This document shows, piece after piece, positions 5,289-23,439 of a stretch of DNA of 64,000 nt. The stretch lies in the NCBI GenBank assembly GCA_030527205.1, contig JAUNBG010000013.1:1-64000 (forward strand). Direction: 5' to 3'. Source of the stretch: Planctomycetia bacterium (GTDB taxonomy: Bacteria > Planctomycetota > Planctomycetia > Pirellulales > Thermoguttaceae). Below the pieces are notes generated by a model. The model was not told where the DNA came from, made no database searches, and saw nothing but the letters and a program-made list of their open reading frames with translations. The first letter of the stretch is position 1; each line of letters starts with the position of its first letter. The position numbers and the translations under genes were made by a program.

Positions 5289-6467
5289 TTAAAACAATCT
5301 GGCTGGCCCGTCAGAATAAGGGTCTTTATTATAAGGGCTGGAACAATCATATTTGGAAGGATCTGCGCCCATATGAACAAGTCCTTTGGTTGTTATTCGG
5401 CGACCTCGCGGCGTTCGAATAACCAGTTCGCTGCGAAGCAGAAACGGTTCAACTTCATCGACGAGCGTATCCGGAGCAATGTTGATTGTATGAGCAACGG
5501 CTTCAACGCCGACTGGGCCGCCATTAAAGACTCGCAAAATTGTATCGAGATATTTGCGATCTTGAGGATCAAGTCCAAGCGTATCGATTCCTTGCATTTC
5601 CAAGGCGTCTTGAGCAACGAGCAGAGTTATCTGACCGTTGGCCTTTGCGTCTGCGAAATCGCGAACCCAACGAAGTCGATTATTAGCCAAACGGGGCGTT
5701 CCCCGGCTTCGCGATGCTATTTCAAAAGCGGCTTGTTCATTGATTTGAACGCGAAGTTTATGAGCGTTGCGTCGAATGATTTCCGAAAGTTCTTCGATTG
5801 TATAGAAATCGAGATGTTCTCGCATTTGAAAGCGATCTCTCAGCGGCGCTGAAATCAGACCGGTTCGCGTTGTTGCTCCGATAAGCGTAAACGGTTTTAG
5901 TTGAATGTTAAGAGTTCGCGCATTGACTCCTTCGCCCAAGGTTAAGTCTATTCGAAAATCTTCCATTGCCGGATAAAGAAATTCTTCAACCGTCTTTTGC
6001 ATTCGATGGATTTCGTCAATAAAAAGAATGGATCCTTCTTCCGCGTTTGTTAGATAGGGAACAATGTCTTTGGGAGCGCGAAGCGTCGCGCCATTTCCTA
6101 TTTGATAGCTGACTCCTAATTCTTTGGGAATGCAAGTTGCAAACGTTGTTTTTCCAAGACCAGGCGGACCGTCAAATAATATGTGACCAAGCGGTTCGCC
6201 GCGTTTTTTCGCAGCATGAACTGCTATTTCTATTCGCGCATAGACTTCTTGTTGTCCGACCATATCAACCATTCGAGTTGGTCGAAGCAGTAAATCTTCT
6301 TCCGAACCTTTTTTTTCCAATGGGGTCGAAAAAGGCTCGGACGCTGTTGTTGGAGCCAAGGATTCCGGGGCTGTTGTCGAATCTTTTTTTGAAGGGTTGA
6401 TGTTATTGGAATTGTGTTCGTCATCTTGATATTCGTCAGATTGACTGATTATCGGAACTCGATTCAT
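5289..6467 (-). CDS. ruvB: Holliday junction branch-migration ATPase RuvB
   Basis: A 392-residue motor ATPase that drives RuvA-bound Holliday junctions during recombinational repair. From this start, Walker A GPPGLGKT is at about residues 100-107. It is followed by Walker B LFIDEIHR, the sensor region FTLIGATTRTGLISAPLRDRF, the RGTPR motif and the C-terminal winged helix with RTPRGRRITTKG. The ATG at 6467 (MNRVPIISQ) was chosen because planctomycete RuvB proteins have a short N-terminus and the preceding 61 codons are not RuvB-like. A TTG at 6650 keeps the frame open and would add 61 residues, the first 33 of which lie in a triplicated DNA unit. Residues 10-55 are a Ser/Asn/Thr-rich linker. 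No ruvA or ruvC is nearby. Confidence 0.93.
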   Translation of the reverse strand: MNRVPIISQSDEYQDDEHNSNNINPSKKDSTTAPESLAPTTASEPFSTPLEKKGSEEDLLLRPTRMVDMVGQQEVYARIEIAVHAAKKRGEPLGHILFDGPPGLGKTTFATCIPKELGVSYQIGNGATLRAPKDIVPYLTNAEEGSILFIDEIHRMQKTVEEFLYPAMEDFRIDLTLGEGVNARTLNIQLKPFTLIGATTRTGLISAPLRDRFQMREHLDFYTIEELSEIIRRNAHKLRVQINEQAAFEIASRSRGTPRLANNRLRWVRDFADAKANGQITLLVAQDALEMQGIDTLGLDPQDRKYLDTILRVFNGGPVGVEAVAHTINIAPDTLVDEVEPFLLRSELVIRTPRGRRITTKGLVHMGADPSKYDCSSPYNKDPYSDGPARLF

Positions 6468-6739
6468 TTTGTTATCCGTAACTGGATTGAAAGGGATGAA
6501 ACGCAAACTTTTAAAAAAGGCTAATGCTTTCGCCTGGGTTAATTGAATGAGTTTCTCGAAAAAAATTGACTTGCGTCTCTTTTTTCGAGCTGATTTTCGT
6601 CCCGGGGGGCGAATGGGAGTTGGACGGTTGATCGTCGTTTCGACTTGCAAGGGAGTTCAACTTTGATTTTATGTGGGACGAAAATCAAAATGCTTCGCTG
6701 TTTCTGAACAAGGACGTTCGAGAAAATCGAACGATTTTG

Positions 6740-6859
6740 TCTCCGACGGGCAACCTGCGCGGTTGCATCGCGGCAACGCTAGGGCGTTGCATTCCGGGCG
6801 GAGCTGCCGCTCCGTTGGCAGGGCGCCGCTCCCGTTGGTCGCTGGGGTTCATCGAACGA
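6740..6859 (+). repeat. Family C copy in tandem unit 1
   Basis: A GC-rich block from TCCGACGGGCAACCTGCGCG to CGCTGGGGTTCATCGAACGA. It is the most diverged of the three tandem copies. Confidence 0.8.
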
Positions 6860-7047
6860 GTTTCTCGAAAAAAATTGACTTGCGTCTCTTTTTTCGAGCT
6901 GATTTTCGTCCCGGGGGGCGAATGGGAGTTGGACGGTTGATCGTCGTTTCGACTTGCAAGGGAGTTCAACTTTGATTTTATGTGGGACGAAAATCAAAAT
7001 GCTTCGCTGTTTCTGAACAAGGACGTTCGAGAAAATCGAACGATTTT

Positions 7048-7167
7048 GTCTCCGACGGGCAACCTGCGCGGTTGCATCGCGGCAACGCAAGGGCGTTGCA
7101 TCCCGATTGGAGCTGCCGCTCCGTTGGCAGGGCGCCGCTCCCGTTGGTCGCTGGGTTGATTGAACGA
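7048..7167 (+). repeat. Family C copy in tandem unit 2
   Basis: A GC-rich block almost the same as the window-edge copy. It ends CGCTGGGTTGATTGAACGA, which joins directly to the third tandem unit. Confidence 0.8.
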
Positions 7168-7355
7168 GTTTCTCGAAAAAAATTGACTTGCGTCTCTTTT
7201 TTCGAGCTGATTTTCGTCCCGGGGGGCGAATGGGAGTTGGACGGTTGATCGTCGTTTCGACTTGCAAGGGAGTTCAACTTTGATTTTATGTGGGACGAAA
7301 ATCAAAATGCTTCGCTGTTTCTGAACAAGGACGTTCGAGAAAATCGAACGATTTT

Positions 7356-18913: not shown

Positions 18914-19567
18914 TTAATTTTGAAGCGACAACGAAAGCGCTCGAGCCAATTGAACCGCAGCATTAGCGTTTTCGCTATAACCGTCAGCTCCAATTTCGTT
19001 GGCAAACCTTTTCGAGACAGGCGCTCCGCCGATCATAATTCGAACGCGATTCCGTAATCCTTCCGTTTCCAAACGATCCAAAACGGTTTTCATATAAGGC
19101 ATTGTTGTTGTCAAAAGAGCGGACATTGCCAAAATGATCGGACCTTCGTTTTCAAGAATGGTTTTTAAAAACTGATCGACTGTTGTATTGACGCCCAGGT
19201 CAATAACCTCAAAACCGCCTCCTTCAAGCATTGAAGCAACAAGATTTTTGCCAATGTCATGCATATCGCCTTGAACGGTTCCAATAACGACCTTTCCTAT
19301 TTTTTCGACTCCGGAACTCTTTAGAAGCGGATTCAATATTTTCATTGATTCTTGCATAACTTTGGAAGAAATGATTAAATCGGGAACAAAATATTCTCCT
19401 TCATCGAATAATCGACCGACTTCATTCATTGCTGGAATCAAATGATTTTCCAATATATATTGAGCTGTTTTGTTTTGATCCAAAAGAGCGTTAACCTGAA
19501 CAATGGCTGTTCCAATATCGCCCTCAACAACAGCTATAAAAAGTTCCGAAACGTTTTCCGATGTCAT
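18914..19567 (-). CDS. Corrinoid (B12)-binding methyltransferase partner protein
   Basis: A 217-residue cytoplasmic protein that should carry a cobamide methyl group for a partner methyltransferase. The N-terminal four-helix cap (about 5-85) is followed by a B12-binding Rossmann domain. That domain has GDMHDIGKNL at about 100-109, where the histidine would ligate cobalt, then SALLTTTMPYM and IGGAPVS. The ATG at 19567 (MTSENVSEL) was chosen because AAAAGGAAATTA directly precedes it; an ATG at 19582 would add five residues. No MtaB/MtbB-like methyltransferase or reactivase is encoded nearby, so its partner must lie elsewhere. Confidence 0.85.
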   Translation of the reverse strand: MTSENVSELFIAVVEGDIGTAIVQVNALLDQNKTAQYILENHLIPAMNEVGRLFDEGEYFVPDLIISSKVMQESMKILNPLLKSSGVEKIGKVVIGTVQGDMHDIGKNLVASMLEGGGFEVIDLGVNTTVDQFLKTILENEGPIILAMSALLTTTMPYMKTVLDRLETEGLRNRVRIMIGGAPVSKRFANEIGADGYSENANAAVQLARALSLSLQN

Positions 19568-19595
19568 TAATTTCCTTTTCATTCAAAATAATGAA

Positions 19596-19669: not shown

Positions 19670-22600
19670 TTAGAGTTCCGCCATTTGTTCATTTTGCGGC
19701 AAATTTTCCGCATTTGAATCCGTATTATTCTCGACGGTTTGTGACATTTCTTTTTCTTGAACGGCTTTTTCCAATTCCGCAGTCAGATCGGCAATTCGTT
19801 TGTCTGTTTCTGCCTTAAGGTCGGCAATGGTTTTTTCGGCTTGCGATTTTGTTTCTGCGGCAAGTTGTTCCGCCGCTTCTTTGGCCGCTTTTTCCGCAGC
19901 GATTGCTTCCGCATTTTCTTTCGTCAACTGATCAATCGTCTGAATTTTTTCATTATTGATTTGGTCAACTTTTTTCTGATTTTCGTTCATTAACTTTTCG
20001 ACGGAATCTTTATTCTCCTGCGTCAATTTCTCAATTGTCGTCAAGGCTTCTTTTAATGCCGCCTGAGATTCATCCAAAGCAGCTTGAATTTCTTCTTTGG
20101 CCGTTTTTTCAGCGGCGAGTTTATCAGCGGCCGCTTGAGCGTCTTTTGCAATTTTCTCTTGAGCTGCTTTTTCTTTTGCTGCAAGATCAGCGGCTTCTTT
20201 TTCCGCTCGTTCTTTTGCTTCTTGTTGAATCTTTTCATTCAACGCTGCTTTTTCGATTGCCTTTTGAGCTTCTTCCGTTGCTTTTAACTCAGCGGCTGCT
20301 TTCGAGGCGTTGACTGCCGCATTGGGTTCGCCCAAAAGTTTCTTATTGTTGACTTCTGGAGCGCGATACCAATTTCCGTGCAGCCAATCGGCAAGGAGTT
20401 CAATGTCTTCCTGACTCATCAACTTATCGCCCGTTGCTGGATGATAAGCAGGCATTCGATCATTATTGGCCCCATAATATTTGAGCGACGTCGGATCGGA
20501 AATAATGCCAATGAGCCAGTCTCGCGACATATAACCTCGAAGATCGCAGGCATGATCGTTTTCTTTGCCATAAAATGCGTGACATTCTGTACAAGTCAGG
20601 AATTCAAAATCGGAAATGGCATTGTCGCGAAGCCCGAGATATTTTCCTTCAACGAACGGACGAATTTCATCCAATTTCGATTCTTCATAAAGAATTTCGC
20701 CCATTTCGTGACAGGATTCGAAAAGTCCTTGTCGAATTTGTTTAATGTATTTTTGGTCTTCCGGAGCAATCGGTTCATCGTTTCCGCAAAGCGTCAACAA
20801 ATATGAATCTTCAAGGAACGAATCAATATCATCGTCGAGAATCATTGCGATATTGTCTTCGTCTTTCAGAAGTTCGATATAAGTTTTGTCCGCAAACATA
20901 TCCAAAAGGACAGATTTGAGCGCAGCAAGAACCGGAGCGGGCAACTTGGGTTGAAGATCGGCGAGAAATGCCGCATCGTCAAACTTAGCCGCGACGATTT
21001 CCTTTAACTTCTCAATATATTCGCCATTTTGAATTATTTCCGCATTTTCTTCAACTTCAACAAGTTCCTCAAAAGACGCTTGAAGAATATCGAATGCCGG
21101 ACTGGCGTCATAACCAATGACCGAATAAATCAATCCGCTGTTATTGAGAACAAACGAACCGTCATCCGTATCAAGACCGCCATAAATACGTCCTTTCAGA
21201 AAAACGACCATTGACCCTTTTTCGGCAAAATTCGTCGTTTTTCCAAAATAATCGTCGCTGACAATTTTCTCCAAATTCTGATAACCATGCATCCATTCCT
21301 CGGAAAGGCAATTATAAAGATTCGGAGCGGTTGGTTCGGCGCTAATGATCGGTTGATAATCGGAATTTTCCGGAATGTCGCCAAACTGTTGAAAATTATG
21401 ACAACTTGAACATTGTTGTTCAAAAATTTTCGGTCCTTGAATGAACGGGTCTTTTTGAAGAAGTCCAAGCGCGCCGGATTTCGGAATTCCCGCCGGGGCA
21501 AAACAGAGTTCAACCGCTCGTTTTTTCAAAACATTCGCCTGAGCCTGACCCGCTAAAAACGTTGGCGCATGCTCTGGATTTTTATAATCGTCCCAATAAG
21601 ACGCATAAGTAAACCAACAAAAAACGACAAAGAGTCCAAAGGTTATCAAAACGATACAATAATGAAAGAGCGAAAAACGTCCCAAAATTGGAATCGCAAA
21701 GAAATATAATCCAAGCAGAGTCGGAATGACAAAAATCGCATAAATCATTCCAATTTCAGAGAAAATCGGCAATTTCGACATATAATAAAGAGCGCGGAAA
21801 GACCATTCCGGGCGAGCGGCGTCATAAGAACCGCCAGGATCGGCAGGAGAAGTCAATTCTGCGCCCAAATAGGCTTCGGCAGGAAGCGTTGCCGCGCGTT
21901 CGGAAATCTGCTTTTCATTATAGGAATGTTGCATAACAAGGGCTAAAACAGCCGCCAGAAAAACGACGCAAGTCAACGCGCACATAACGGCTTCGCAGCC
22001 CCAAAACGTTCGACGTTTCGCAACAGCGCAAGCCAAGGCGCAAGAATGTTTTTTACAAAATCGCGGCTCTTGAATCAGTTTTCGCGAACGAAAATCAGCC
22101 CATTTCCAAAAAATCATAACGCCGAGGAAACCGCCGCCAAAGACCGCAATATGCAAAACAAGGAAACGGGTCAGCGTTAAAGTTCCGAATTGAGGGTCGG
22201 GGCTGCCGACAACCAATTTATAGAGCGGAACGCCGATTTCGGGAAGAATTTGCAGAAAGGCAACTCGCGCCATTGTTGCAAAATAACCTGAAAGCGACCA
22301 CATAAGCAAATCGCCGGTTAAACAACTTGCCAAGGAGAAAAGAAAAAGGACAACTGCCGACCAATAAACAAACTCTCTTGGACGTCGATAAGAACCATGC
22401 AAAATCATCATTAATACATACATAAATAATGAAGCAACGAGAAGCTGCGCGGAATAATGATGAATTCCCCGAACAAGCCATCCATAAGGAACGACATATT
22501 GAATATAAAAGACGCTTTCCCAAGCGGTCTGAGCGGACGCGGAATAAAACGCCCAAAGAAAAAGCCCCGTTATTCCTTGCAAAATAAAGGCAAAAACAAT

Positions 22601-22714
22601 CGCAACCGGCAGAAACCGACAAAGACATAAGCTCGCCGGAACCGTCCAATGCGTAACATTGCGAAAACCGGTCCAAAGACCAGTTCGTTCATCAAGCCAT
22701 TTAAATGGTCCCAT
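19670..22714 (-). CDS. Cytochrome b fused to dihaem cytochrome c and coiled coil
   Basis: A 1014-residue membrane protein, the core of a Rieske/cytochrome b quinol oxidoreductase. Residues 1-210 are the four-helix cytochrome b part, and 300-375 resemble subunit IV, with PEWS at 302-305 where PEWY is usual. A c-type cytochrome follows, with CSSCH at 435-439, CTECH at 708-712 and a likely Met ligand at M754 (DRMPAYH). A roughly 200-residue Ala/Glu/Lys coiled coil ends it. Aligned to mitochondrial cytochrome b, H85 and H188 match the bL ligands. The two bH positions are Y99 and F202, so haem bH appears to be lost. AGGAAAA precedes the ATG. The Rieske gene lies 125 bases upstream, and the pair is probably one operon. 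Confidence 0.88.
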   Translation of the reverse strand: MGPFKWLDERTGLWTGFRNVTHWTVPASLCLCRFLPVAIVFAFILQGITGLFLWAFYSASAQTAWESVFYIQYVVPYGWLVRGIHHYSAQLLVASLFMYVLMMILHGSYRRPREFVYWSAVVLFLFSLASCLTGDLLMWSLSGYFATMARVAFLQILPEIGVPLYKLVVGSPDPQFGTLTLTRFLVLHIAVFGGGFLGVMIFWKWADFRSRKLIQEPRFCKKHSCALACAVAKRRTFWGCEAVMCALTCVVFLAAVLALVMQHSYNEKQISERAATLPAEAYLGAELTSPADPGGSYDAARPEWSFRALYYMSKLPIFSEIGMIYAIFVIPTLLGLYFFAIPILGRFSLFHYCIVLITFGLFVVFCWFTYASYWDDYKNPEHAPTFLAGQAQANVLKKRAVELCFAPAGIPKSGALGLLQKDPFIQGPKIFEQQCSSCHNFQQFGDIPENSDYQPIISAEPTAPNLYNCLSEEWMHGYQNLEKIVSDDYFGKTTNFAEKGSMVVFLKGRIYGGLDTDDGSFVLNNSGLIYSVIGYDASPAFDILQASFEELVEVEENAEIIQNGEYIEKLKEIVAAKFDDAAFLADLQPKLPAPVLAALKSVLLDMFADKTYIELLKDEDNIAMILDDDIDSFLEDSYLLTLCGNDEPIAPEDQKYIKQIRQGLFESCHEMGEILYEESKLDEIRPFVEGKYLGLRDNAISDFEFLTCTECHAFYGKENDHACDLRGYMSRDWLIGIISDPTSLKYYGANNDRMPAYHPATGDKLMSQEDIELLADWLHGNWYRAPEVNNKKLLGEPNAAVNASKAAAELKATEEAQKAIEKAALNEKIQQEAKERAEKEAADLAAKEKAAQEKIAKDAQAAADKLAAEKTAKEEIQAALDESQAALKEALTTIEKLTQENKDSVEKLMNENQKKVDQINNEKIQTIDQLTKENAEAIAAEKAAKEAAEQLAAETKSQAEKTIADLKAETDKRIADLTAELEKAVQEKEMSQTVENNTDSNAENLPQNEQMAEL

Positions 22715-22839: not shown

Positions 22840-23439
22840 TCAAACAGGCGATTTTTCGGCGTCGCCGAGTCGGAAATTCTGAAATTTAACGAAAACTTTG
22901 CCGTCTTCAATACGGGTTTCCAGCGAATCCATTGATCGGGCTGATTTTGCTGTTGACGGATCAACGCGTTCGCCATTAAGATAAAAAACGTCGCCATGAC
23001 AAGGGCAAAAGAAAAGCATTTCGTTTTCGCCCGTTTTGGGATTCTTTTGCATATCGACTTTAATTCGGCAACCCGCATGCGGACAAACCGATTGAAATGC
23101 TTCAACGACAACTTGTCCATCTTTTTCGATTTTGCGAAGAAAAATGTTGCCGATTGTTTGATTTGGCGCGGAAACCCAGGCGTCGGTAATATCATCGACG
23201 ATTGAATAGAGACGCGGCGTTTCATCCAGATTGTCAAGGGTTGTCAGCGCATATTCTTTTCCGGAAAGACTTGTTTGCTGCAATGGATAAAGAGCCATTC
23301 GAGCTCCGCCATAAATTGGAACAGCGACGGTTGCCGCGCCCATTCCAAGAGCCAATGCGGATTTACAAAAGCTGCGACGCGTTCCTGAACAATTGTCGGC
23401 AATTATTTGTAAATCATCTTTATTGTTGTTTTGAGACAT
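22840..23439 (-). CDS. Rieske 2Fe-2S protein
   Basis: A 199-residue iron-sulphur subunit that takes electrons from quinol at the outer side of the membrane. The N-terminal RRSFCKSALALGMGAATVA is a twin-arginine-type signal and membrane anchor. The cluster is bound by C119-P-H121-A-G-C124 and C145-P-C147-H148, so both boxes are complete, including the disulphide cysteines. Length is typical. The ATG at 23439 has AGGAG eight bases upstream. It is the first gene of the unit with the cytochrome b-c fusion. A reversed family B element lies about 210 bases upstream in the same orientation, with a family A copy in between. Confidence 0.93.
   Translation of the reverse strand: MSQNNNKDDLQIIADNCSGTRRSFCKSALALGMGAATVAVPIYGGARMALYPLQQTSLSGKEYALTTLDNLDETPRLYSIVDDITDAWVSAPNQTIGNIFLRKIEKDGQVVVEAFQSVCPHAGCRIKVDMQKNPKTGENEMLFFCPCHGDVFYLNGERVDPSTAKSARSMDSLETRIEDGKVFVKFQNFRLGDAEKSPV

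Follow-up and report, generated by a model that had tools for sequence, protein, structure and literature searches.

A planctomycete Rieske/cytochrome b complex that probably lacks haem bH

Introduction

The described bc-type complexes share a two-haem b chain, which enables the Q-cycle. A gene encoding a fused cytochrome b-c subunit in a planctomycete genome raises the question of whether a Rieske/cytochrome b complex can exist in nature with haem bL alone and, if so, which path the electrons of quinol would take. The window, i.e., the whole stretch of DNA analyzed, comprises 64,000 nt (contig JAUNBG010000013.1 of assembly GCA_030527205.1, positions 1 to 64,000, forward strand). The cytochrome b encoded in it was compared with a family set of 79 sequences, one per genome, and with a sister set of 40 orthologs belonging to other families within the order. 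The genomes compared are mostly MAGs, and the close relatives are designated as Thermoguttaceae, Planctomycetia or uncultured planctomycete, several of them being from the ruminant gut.

The gene pair and its genomic context

The two subunits and the haem c motifs of the larger one are as follows.

19670..22714, (-) strand: fused cytochrome b/dihaem cytochrome c subunit, ORF of 1014 aa (PF00033, PF13631, PF00034)
22840..23439, (-) strand: Rieske iron-sulfur subunit (PF00355), directly upstream of the cytochrome b gene on the same strand
21398..21412, (-) strand: CSSCH, haem c motif 1, residues 435-439 (by motif; PF13442)
20579..20593, (-) strand: CTECH, haem c motif 2, residues 708-712 (by motif; PF00034)

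The ORF is intact over its 1014 aa and matched the Pfam family Cytochrome_B (PF00033) with an E of 5e-20; homologous intact ORFs were found in about 80 family genomes. The window genome is 3.95 Mb in size and 90% complete. Its sole cytochrome b match was the window gene itself, a second, intact cytochrome b being searched for in this genome without success, and the sole Rieske match was the gene at 22840..23439. Thus, no intact copy was found that could take over.

The gene pair is flanked by genes for a corrinoid-binding protein and, on the other strand, an FAD oxidoreductase. The former, a corrinoid-binding (B12) methyltransferase-type protein (18914-19582, (-) strand), directly follows the cytochrome b gene, and no such gene was seen beside the cytochrome b of a relative (L179). 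The last 200 or so residues of the cytochrome b-c protein (19673-20272, (-) strand) form an Ala/Glu/Lys-rich and probably coiled-coil extension; the frame is about 815 aa long in members of the same genus and reaches about 1100 aa in genus g33. Elsewhere in the window, two nearby ORFs (5289-7267, (-) strand) open with a near-identical stretch of ~30 residues (MQVETTINRPTPIRPPGRKSARKKRRKSIFFEKL), a repeat found both beside a RuvB-like gene and within it. On the same contig (C96), about 6 kb beyond the end of the window, we noticed a fused ResB/cytochrome c assembly protein of 1982 aa (L249:5698-11646, (+) strand), an unusually large system-II maturation protein.

Loss of both ligands of haem bH

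The columns of the haem ligands were set by a HMMER alignment to solved cytochrome b6 chains, which matched the window cytochrome b with an E of 7e-22.

22460..22462, (-) strand: H85, axial ligand of haem bL in helix B, aligned with b6 H86 (H in 78/78 readable family members and 40/40 sisters)
22151..22153, (-) strand: H188, axial ligand of haem bL in helix D, aligned with b6 H187 (H in 79/79 family members and 40/40 sisters)
22418..22420, (-) strand: Y99, ligand position of haem bH in helix B, aligned with b6 H100 (family Y70, H2, T2, R1, S1, F1, W1; sisters H 40/40)
22106..22111, (-) strand: F202-W203 in helix D, W203 (+15 from H188) being the true haem bH position (family W38, H32, R6, S1, Q1; sisters H 40/40)

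The preliminary description of this DNA had assigned H85 and H188 to haem bL, and both the b6 alignment and the conservation in the family agree with this assignment. It had placed the lost bH ligands at Y99 and F202, of which Y99 stands and F202 does not. In every intact relative checked, the helix-D histidines are spaced by 15 residues as in b6, not by 14, and the homologous residue in the window protein is therefore W203. Loss of both ligands, as originally claimed, is unaffected by this correction, since neither Y99 nor W203 is a histidine. We likewise agree that no other histidine sits at the right depth: residues 1-400 contain histidines at positions 22, 85, 86, 106, 188, 223, 263, 351 and 382, and no two of these lie 13-16 residues apart, so that no shift of the alignment restores a bH pair. 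H106, the only histidine nearby, was rejected as a substitute ligand; it is not conserved outside the gut clade, and most members of the wider family lack it. A cysteine for a b6f-type haem ci was rejected as well, as the window cysteines are not at the column of b6 C35 and the sisters have no cysteine in that stretch. An AlphaFold2 model built from nine close sequences was too poor to use (mean pLDDT of 44). Altogether, the alignments leave it near certain that the window protein has no bis-His bH site, and any haem at that site is likely absent.

Family-wide loss and its history

In the family, the bL pair was His/His in 78 of the 78 readable members, while a His/His pair at the bH positions was found in none of 77; both pairs were intact in all of the 40 sisters. 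With such a distribution among orthologs, chance or sequencing error was rejected as the cause of the loss. The 77 readable bH pairs comprised Tyr/Trp (36), Tyr/His (29), Tyr/Arg (4) and others (8), and the two family sequences retaining the helix-B histidine were both without the helix-D histidine. The family formed a single clade with an SH-aLRT of 100, adjoining the intact sister orthologs, and the helix-D Trp marks a nested clade that includes the window protein. Basal members keep the helix-D histidine together with the Tyr. Thus, judging from the sequences, the loss of bH is inherited, and in the simplest history the helix-B histidine was lost on the stem of the family and the helix-D histidine later in the gut lineage. 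The preliminary description had asked whether related proteins share Tyr and Phe at these sites: Tyr99 is shared by 70 of the 78 readable members, but the helix-D residue is mostly Trp or His. That Tyr99 is almost invariant suggests that it has a role of its own and does not simply reflect the loss of a ligand.

The dN values for L003, L005 and L012 were about 0.19-0.26, with the synonymous sites saturated, and do not constitute a formal dN/dS test. In one family member (L178 in genome G088, a single contig of 4.81 Mb), the cytochrome c part fused to the bH-less cytochrome b has four CxxCH motifs, compared with two in the window protein.

Accompanying changes around the haems, the Qi and Qo sites and the Rieske cluster

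Changes other than those of the ligands were found in both subunits, together with several conserved positions.

22607..22609, (-) strand: P36, replacing the bH-side glycine of helix A (bovine G34/b6 G37; family P 65/79, sisters G 40/40)
22355..22357, (-) strand: A120, replacing the bH-side glycine of helix C (bovine G116; family A 58/79, G 2/79, sisters G 40/40)
22565..22567, (-) strand: G50, retained glycine on the bL side of helix A (G in 77/79 family members and 40/40 sisters)
22313..22315, (-) strand: G134, retained glycine on the bL side of helix C (G in 79/79 family members and 40/40 sisters)
22310..22312, (-) strand: D135, replacing the Qo-site Tyr of TGYLLPW (position of R. capsulatus Y147 by motif; D in 75/75 family rows, Y in 40/40 sisters)
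21980..21982, (-) strand: C245, at the position of the Qi-site Asp (bovine D228/R. capsulatus D252; 'KD' of a sister protein aligns with bovine 'IKD')
21800..21811, (-) strand: PEWS, altered form of the Qo motif PEWY (family S53, A13, Y4; sisters Y 40/40)
23068..23085, (-) strand: CPHAGC, first cluster-binding motif of the Rieske protein, intact (by motif)
22990..23007, (-) strand: CPCHGD, second Rieske motif, with D replacing the Ser that hydrogen-bonds to the cluster (family A32, D23, Q1, n=56; sisters S 40/40)

Bovine G34 and G116 make room for haem bH, and G48 and G130 are their counterparts on the bL side; the replacements in the window protein fall on the bH side. The Qi-site Asp, conserved in 40/40 sisters, is lost across the family, being mostly Asn in the basal members and Ala, Thr or Cys in the gut clade. 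In R. capsulatus, this residue (D252) is important for proton uptake at Qi (PMC5001787). At the Qo site, PEWS retains Pro, Glu and Trp and has lost Tyr, the Glu of PEW is largely kept across the family, and a further change, L307R, was found in the window protein. Y147 and E295 of R. capsulatus belong to the proton network of Qo (PMC10583091). The Rieske Ser was replaced in 56/56 family members and 0/40 sisters; when this Ser is lost by mutation in yeast, the potential falls by about 130 mV (PMC12954380). Of the features by which Rieske/cytochrome b complexes are recognized, the N-terminal half of cytochrome b, the adjacent Rieske protein with its CxHxGC and CPCH motifs, and the bis-His bL site are present, and the bis-His bH site and the Qi-site Asp are missing.

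We read 40 further loci from the class and analyzed a tree of 84 class-wide sequences, in which at least 6 changes fell on the bH pair and none on the bL pair. Outside the family, the altered bH pairs were Q/Q (L229), V/T (L238), Y/H (L216 and L226) and Q/H (L221 and L228), along with F/Y, Y/F and A/R at the loci L224, L225, L212 and L213. The helix-C glycine was replaced in five of six losses and elsewhere only in L227, the intact neighbor of L221. In an independent-pairs test of bH loss against the loss of G120, all differing pairs agreed, the pairs being too few. Within the order, the loss of the Rieske Ser strictly accompanies that of bH, but this is not so in the rest of the class, where several intact complexes carry a Rieske Ala and two bH-less complexes keep Ser. 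In this wider set, the loss of the Qi Asp is likewise not confined to bH-less complexes. Thus, the retuning seen in the family is no general signature of bH loss.

Respiratory partners in the window genome

A complete-looking Na+-NQR operon was found in the window genome (L248, contig C19), implying a quinone pool. Searches of the same genome found neither a haem-copper oxidase subunit I nor the 49-kDa subunit of complex I. There was no MenD above the cut-off, the match there being an acetolactate synthase-like TPP enzyme, and no member of the futalosine-pathway family was found in this genome, which would thus use quinone without a recognized route to make it. We detected a divergent cytochrome bd subunit I-like protein whose C-terminal part bears a cytochrome c motif, CNDCH (L176:6617-8605, (-) strand, contig C67); bd subunit I matches, most of them similarly weak, occurred in 88 of 119 family genomes. 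As a guess, the protein with CNDCH may be the electron acceptor for the bH-less complex.

A proposed electron path and its alternatives

We propose, with a probability of about 0.62, that the gene pair encodes a working Rieske/cytochrome b complex that has neither haem bH nor a Qi site and would pass both electrons of quinol via the Rieske protein to the fused cytochrome c. The path from quinol to cytochrome c is a hypothesis built on the sequences and would run as follows. Quinol, reduced by Na+-NQR, would be oxidized at Qo on the outer side of the membrane. Since bH would not be there to pull the second electron through the membrane, the two electrons would leave one after the other through the Rieske protein to the fused cytochrome c and then pass to a cytochrome c acceptor; bL would at most hold the second electron briefly until the Rieske protein returns, or may be needed for folding. 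Per quinol, two protons would be released outside, no charge would cross the membrane via the b chain, and no Q-cycle would operate. Energy conservation in the window organism would then rest on Na+-NQR.

The earlier suggestion that a normal Q-cycle is excluded without bH is well supported by the sequences and extends to the whole family. The term 'non-proton-pumping' applied to the enzyme fits insofar as the b chain would carry no charge across the membrane, but two protons would still be set free on the outer side as quinol is oxidized there. The idea of the fused cytochrome c as a special electron exit finds no support. The ORFs of the intact sisters, about 600-720 aa long, combine cytochrome b with a C-terminal part bearing CxxCH in those examined; sisters with both haems thus have the same fused build, and the fused cytochrome c is ancestral and an ordinary, c1-like acceptor after the Rieske protein.

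Experiments on R. capsulatus bear on what a lost bH ligand may entail. The mutant H212N, in which one bH histidine is lost, is a bH knock-out with no connection between Qo and Qi (PMC4330944; PMC4807273), and bL is still reduced in the disconnected complex (PMC4330944). A His-Lys pair (H212K), however, restores function (PMC4807273). By analogy with H212K, a haem of altered potential could in principle still occupy the bH site with an unusual ligation, for example by a single Tyr or, in the basal members, by Tyr/His, and the Q-cycle would then be modified rather than lost. The near-invariant Y99 (70/78), the 32 members that keep the helix-D histidine and the ability of this helix bundle to work with other ligand sets (H212K, PMC4807273) would fit such a haem. 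We nevertheless regard it as unlikely. In the sub-clade of the window protein, the partner of the Tyr is Trp, a residue that does not ligate haem iron; T, R, S, F or W may also stand at the helix-B position; Pro and Ala have taken the place of the two glycines that leave space for the haem; and other losses in the class are Q/Q, V/T, A/R and F/Y.

It is also quite improbable that the complex has ceased to act as a respiratory quinol oxidase, with bL being structural, the complex running in reverse from cytochrome c to quinone, or another substrate being used. The altered Qo site (Y135D, PEWS and L307R), together with the failure to find a haem-copper oxidase or the known markers of quinone synthesis in the window genome, would be in line with such a change, but the complex retains the Rieske ligands, the bL ligands, the Glu of PEW and the haem c motifs, and the Nqr operon implies a quinone pool.

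In the gut sub-clade, two groups of cysteines may constitute a Zn or Fe-S site, which the cytochrome b fold would place on the cytoplasmic side.

22619..22627, (-) strand: C30-x-C32, preceding helix A and contributing to a possible metal site on the cytoplasmic side (speculative)
22028..22048, (-) strand: H223-x-C225-x-L-A-C229, in the loop between helices D and E, possibly the other half of the metal site (speculative)

The electrons of bL might exit on the cytoplasmic side via this new centre (C30/C32/C225/C229) in place of bH. Both the N-terminal Cys pair and the HxCxLAC loop occur in 22 of 22 sequences of the genera g1, g33 and g34, including the window protein, and the N-terminal cysteines are found in none of the 40 sisters. 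We consider this exit very unlikely, as the gap from bL without bH is, by our estimate, probably too long for fast transfer, the co-occurrence of the two Cys groups is suggestive but not significant once kinship is allowed for, and many bH-less relatives are without these cysteines. An extended version, in which bH-less complexes arose repeatedly and the four-Cys centre of the gut clade replaced bH as a new low-potential exit for the second electron of quinol instead of Qi, is a long shot. Other bH-less sub-clades have different four-Cys patterns, such as CGGC or CPCEAC loops. Finally, a decaying gene without function is scarcely credible despite the loss of otherwise near-universal residues, as the frame is open in about 80 family genomes, the gut genera have no further cytochrome b, and neither the bL site nor the Rieske site varies.

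Significance and comparison with known systems

For a proposed complex in which both electrons leave through the Rieske protein, the inherited absence of bH, with no other cytochrome b found, lets the role of bL alone be asked directly. The lineage further opens the questions of whether a Rieske enzyme that does not bifurcate can still function and avoid superoxide, and whether giving up bifurcation goes along with a retuning of the Rieske protein and Qo. The at least six losses of bH in the class, with none of bL, suggest that the half of the enzyme serving the Q-cycle can be discarded while the Qo-bL-Rieske half is retained. In the literature searched, we found no natural Rieske/cytochrome b complex described as being without bH; an earlier mention, for instance in older papers on multiple Rieske/cytochrome b complexes, is possible. 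The genome paper of Thermogutta terrifontis gives the complex III genes as ordinary, without remark.

The closest systems are the Rieske/cytochrome b-c complexes of planctomycetes of the same order, which are orthologs with 36-44% identity and, like the window locus, pair a Rieske protein with a fused cytochrome b. These complexes keep the bH His pair, the bH-side glycines, the Qi Asp, PEWY and the Rieske Ser in 40/40 cases, whereas the window complex has lost all of them. With the bc1 and b6f complexes, the window complex shares the bL site, the Rieske protein, the PEW-type Qo motif and the b6-type spacing in helix D, but it differs from them in having no bH ligands and no Qi Asp; the described bc1/b6f members have the same Q-cycle in general (PMC9162462). 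The anammox (Kuenenia) complexes are likewise planctomycete Rieske/cytochrome b complexes with unusual energetics, but they are described as containing both b haems together with additional NAD(P) oxidoreductase subunits (PMC12954380), and no such subunits are encoded beside the window gene pair. The R. capsulatus mutant H212N resembles the window complex in that bL is kept and bH is lost by ligand removal, but it is an impaired laboratory mutant, whereas the state of the window complex is natural, fixed in the family and accompanied by changes in Qo and the Rieske protein. Alternative complex III passes electrons from quinol to cytochrome c without a b-haem Q-cycle, as proposed here for the window complex, but it is not homologous and has no Rieske/cytochrome b core.
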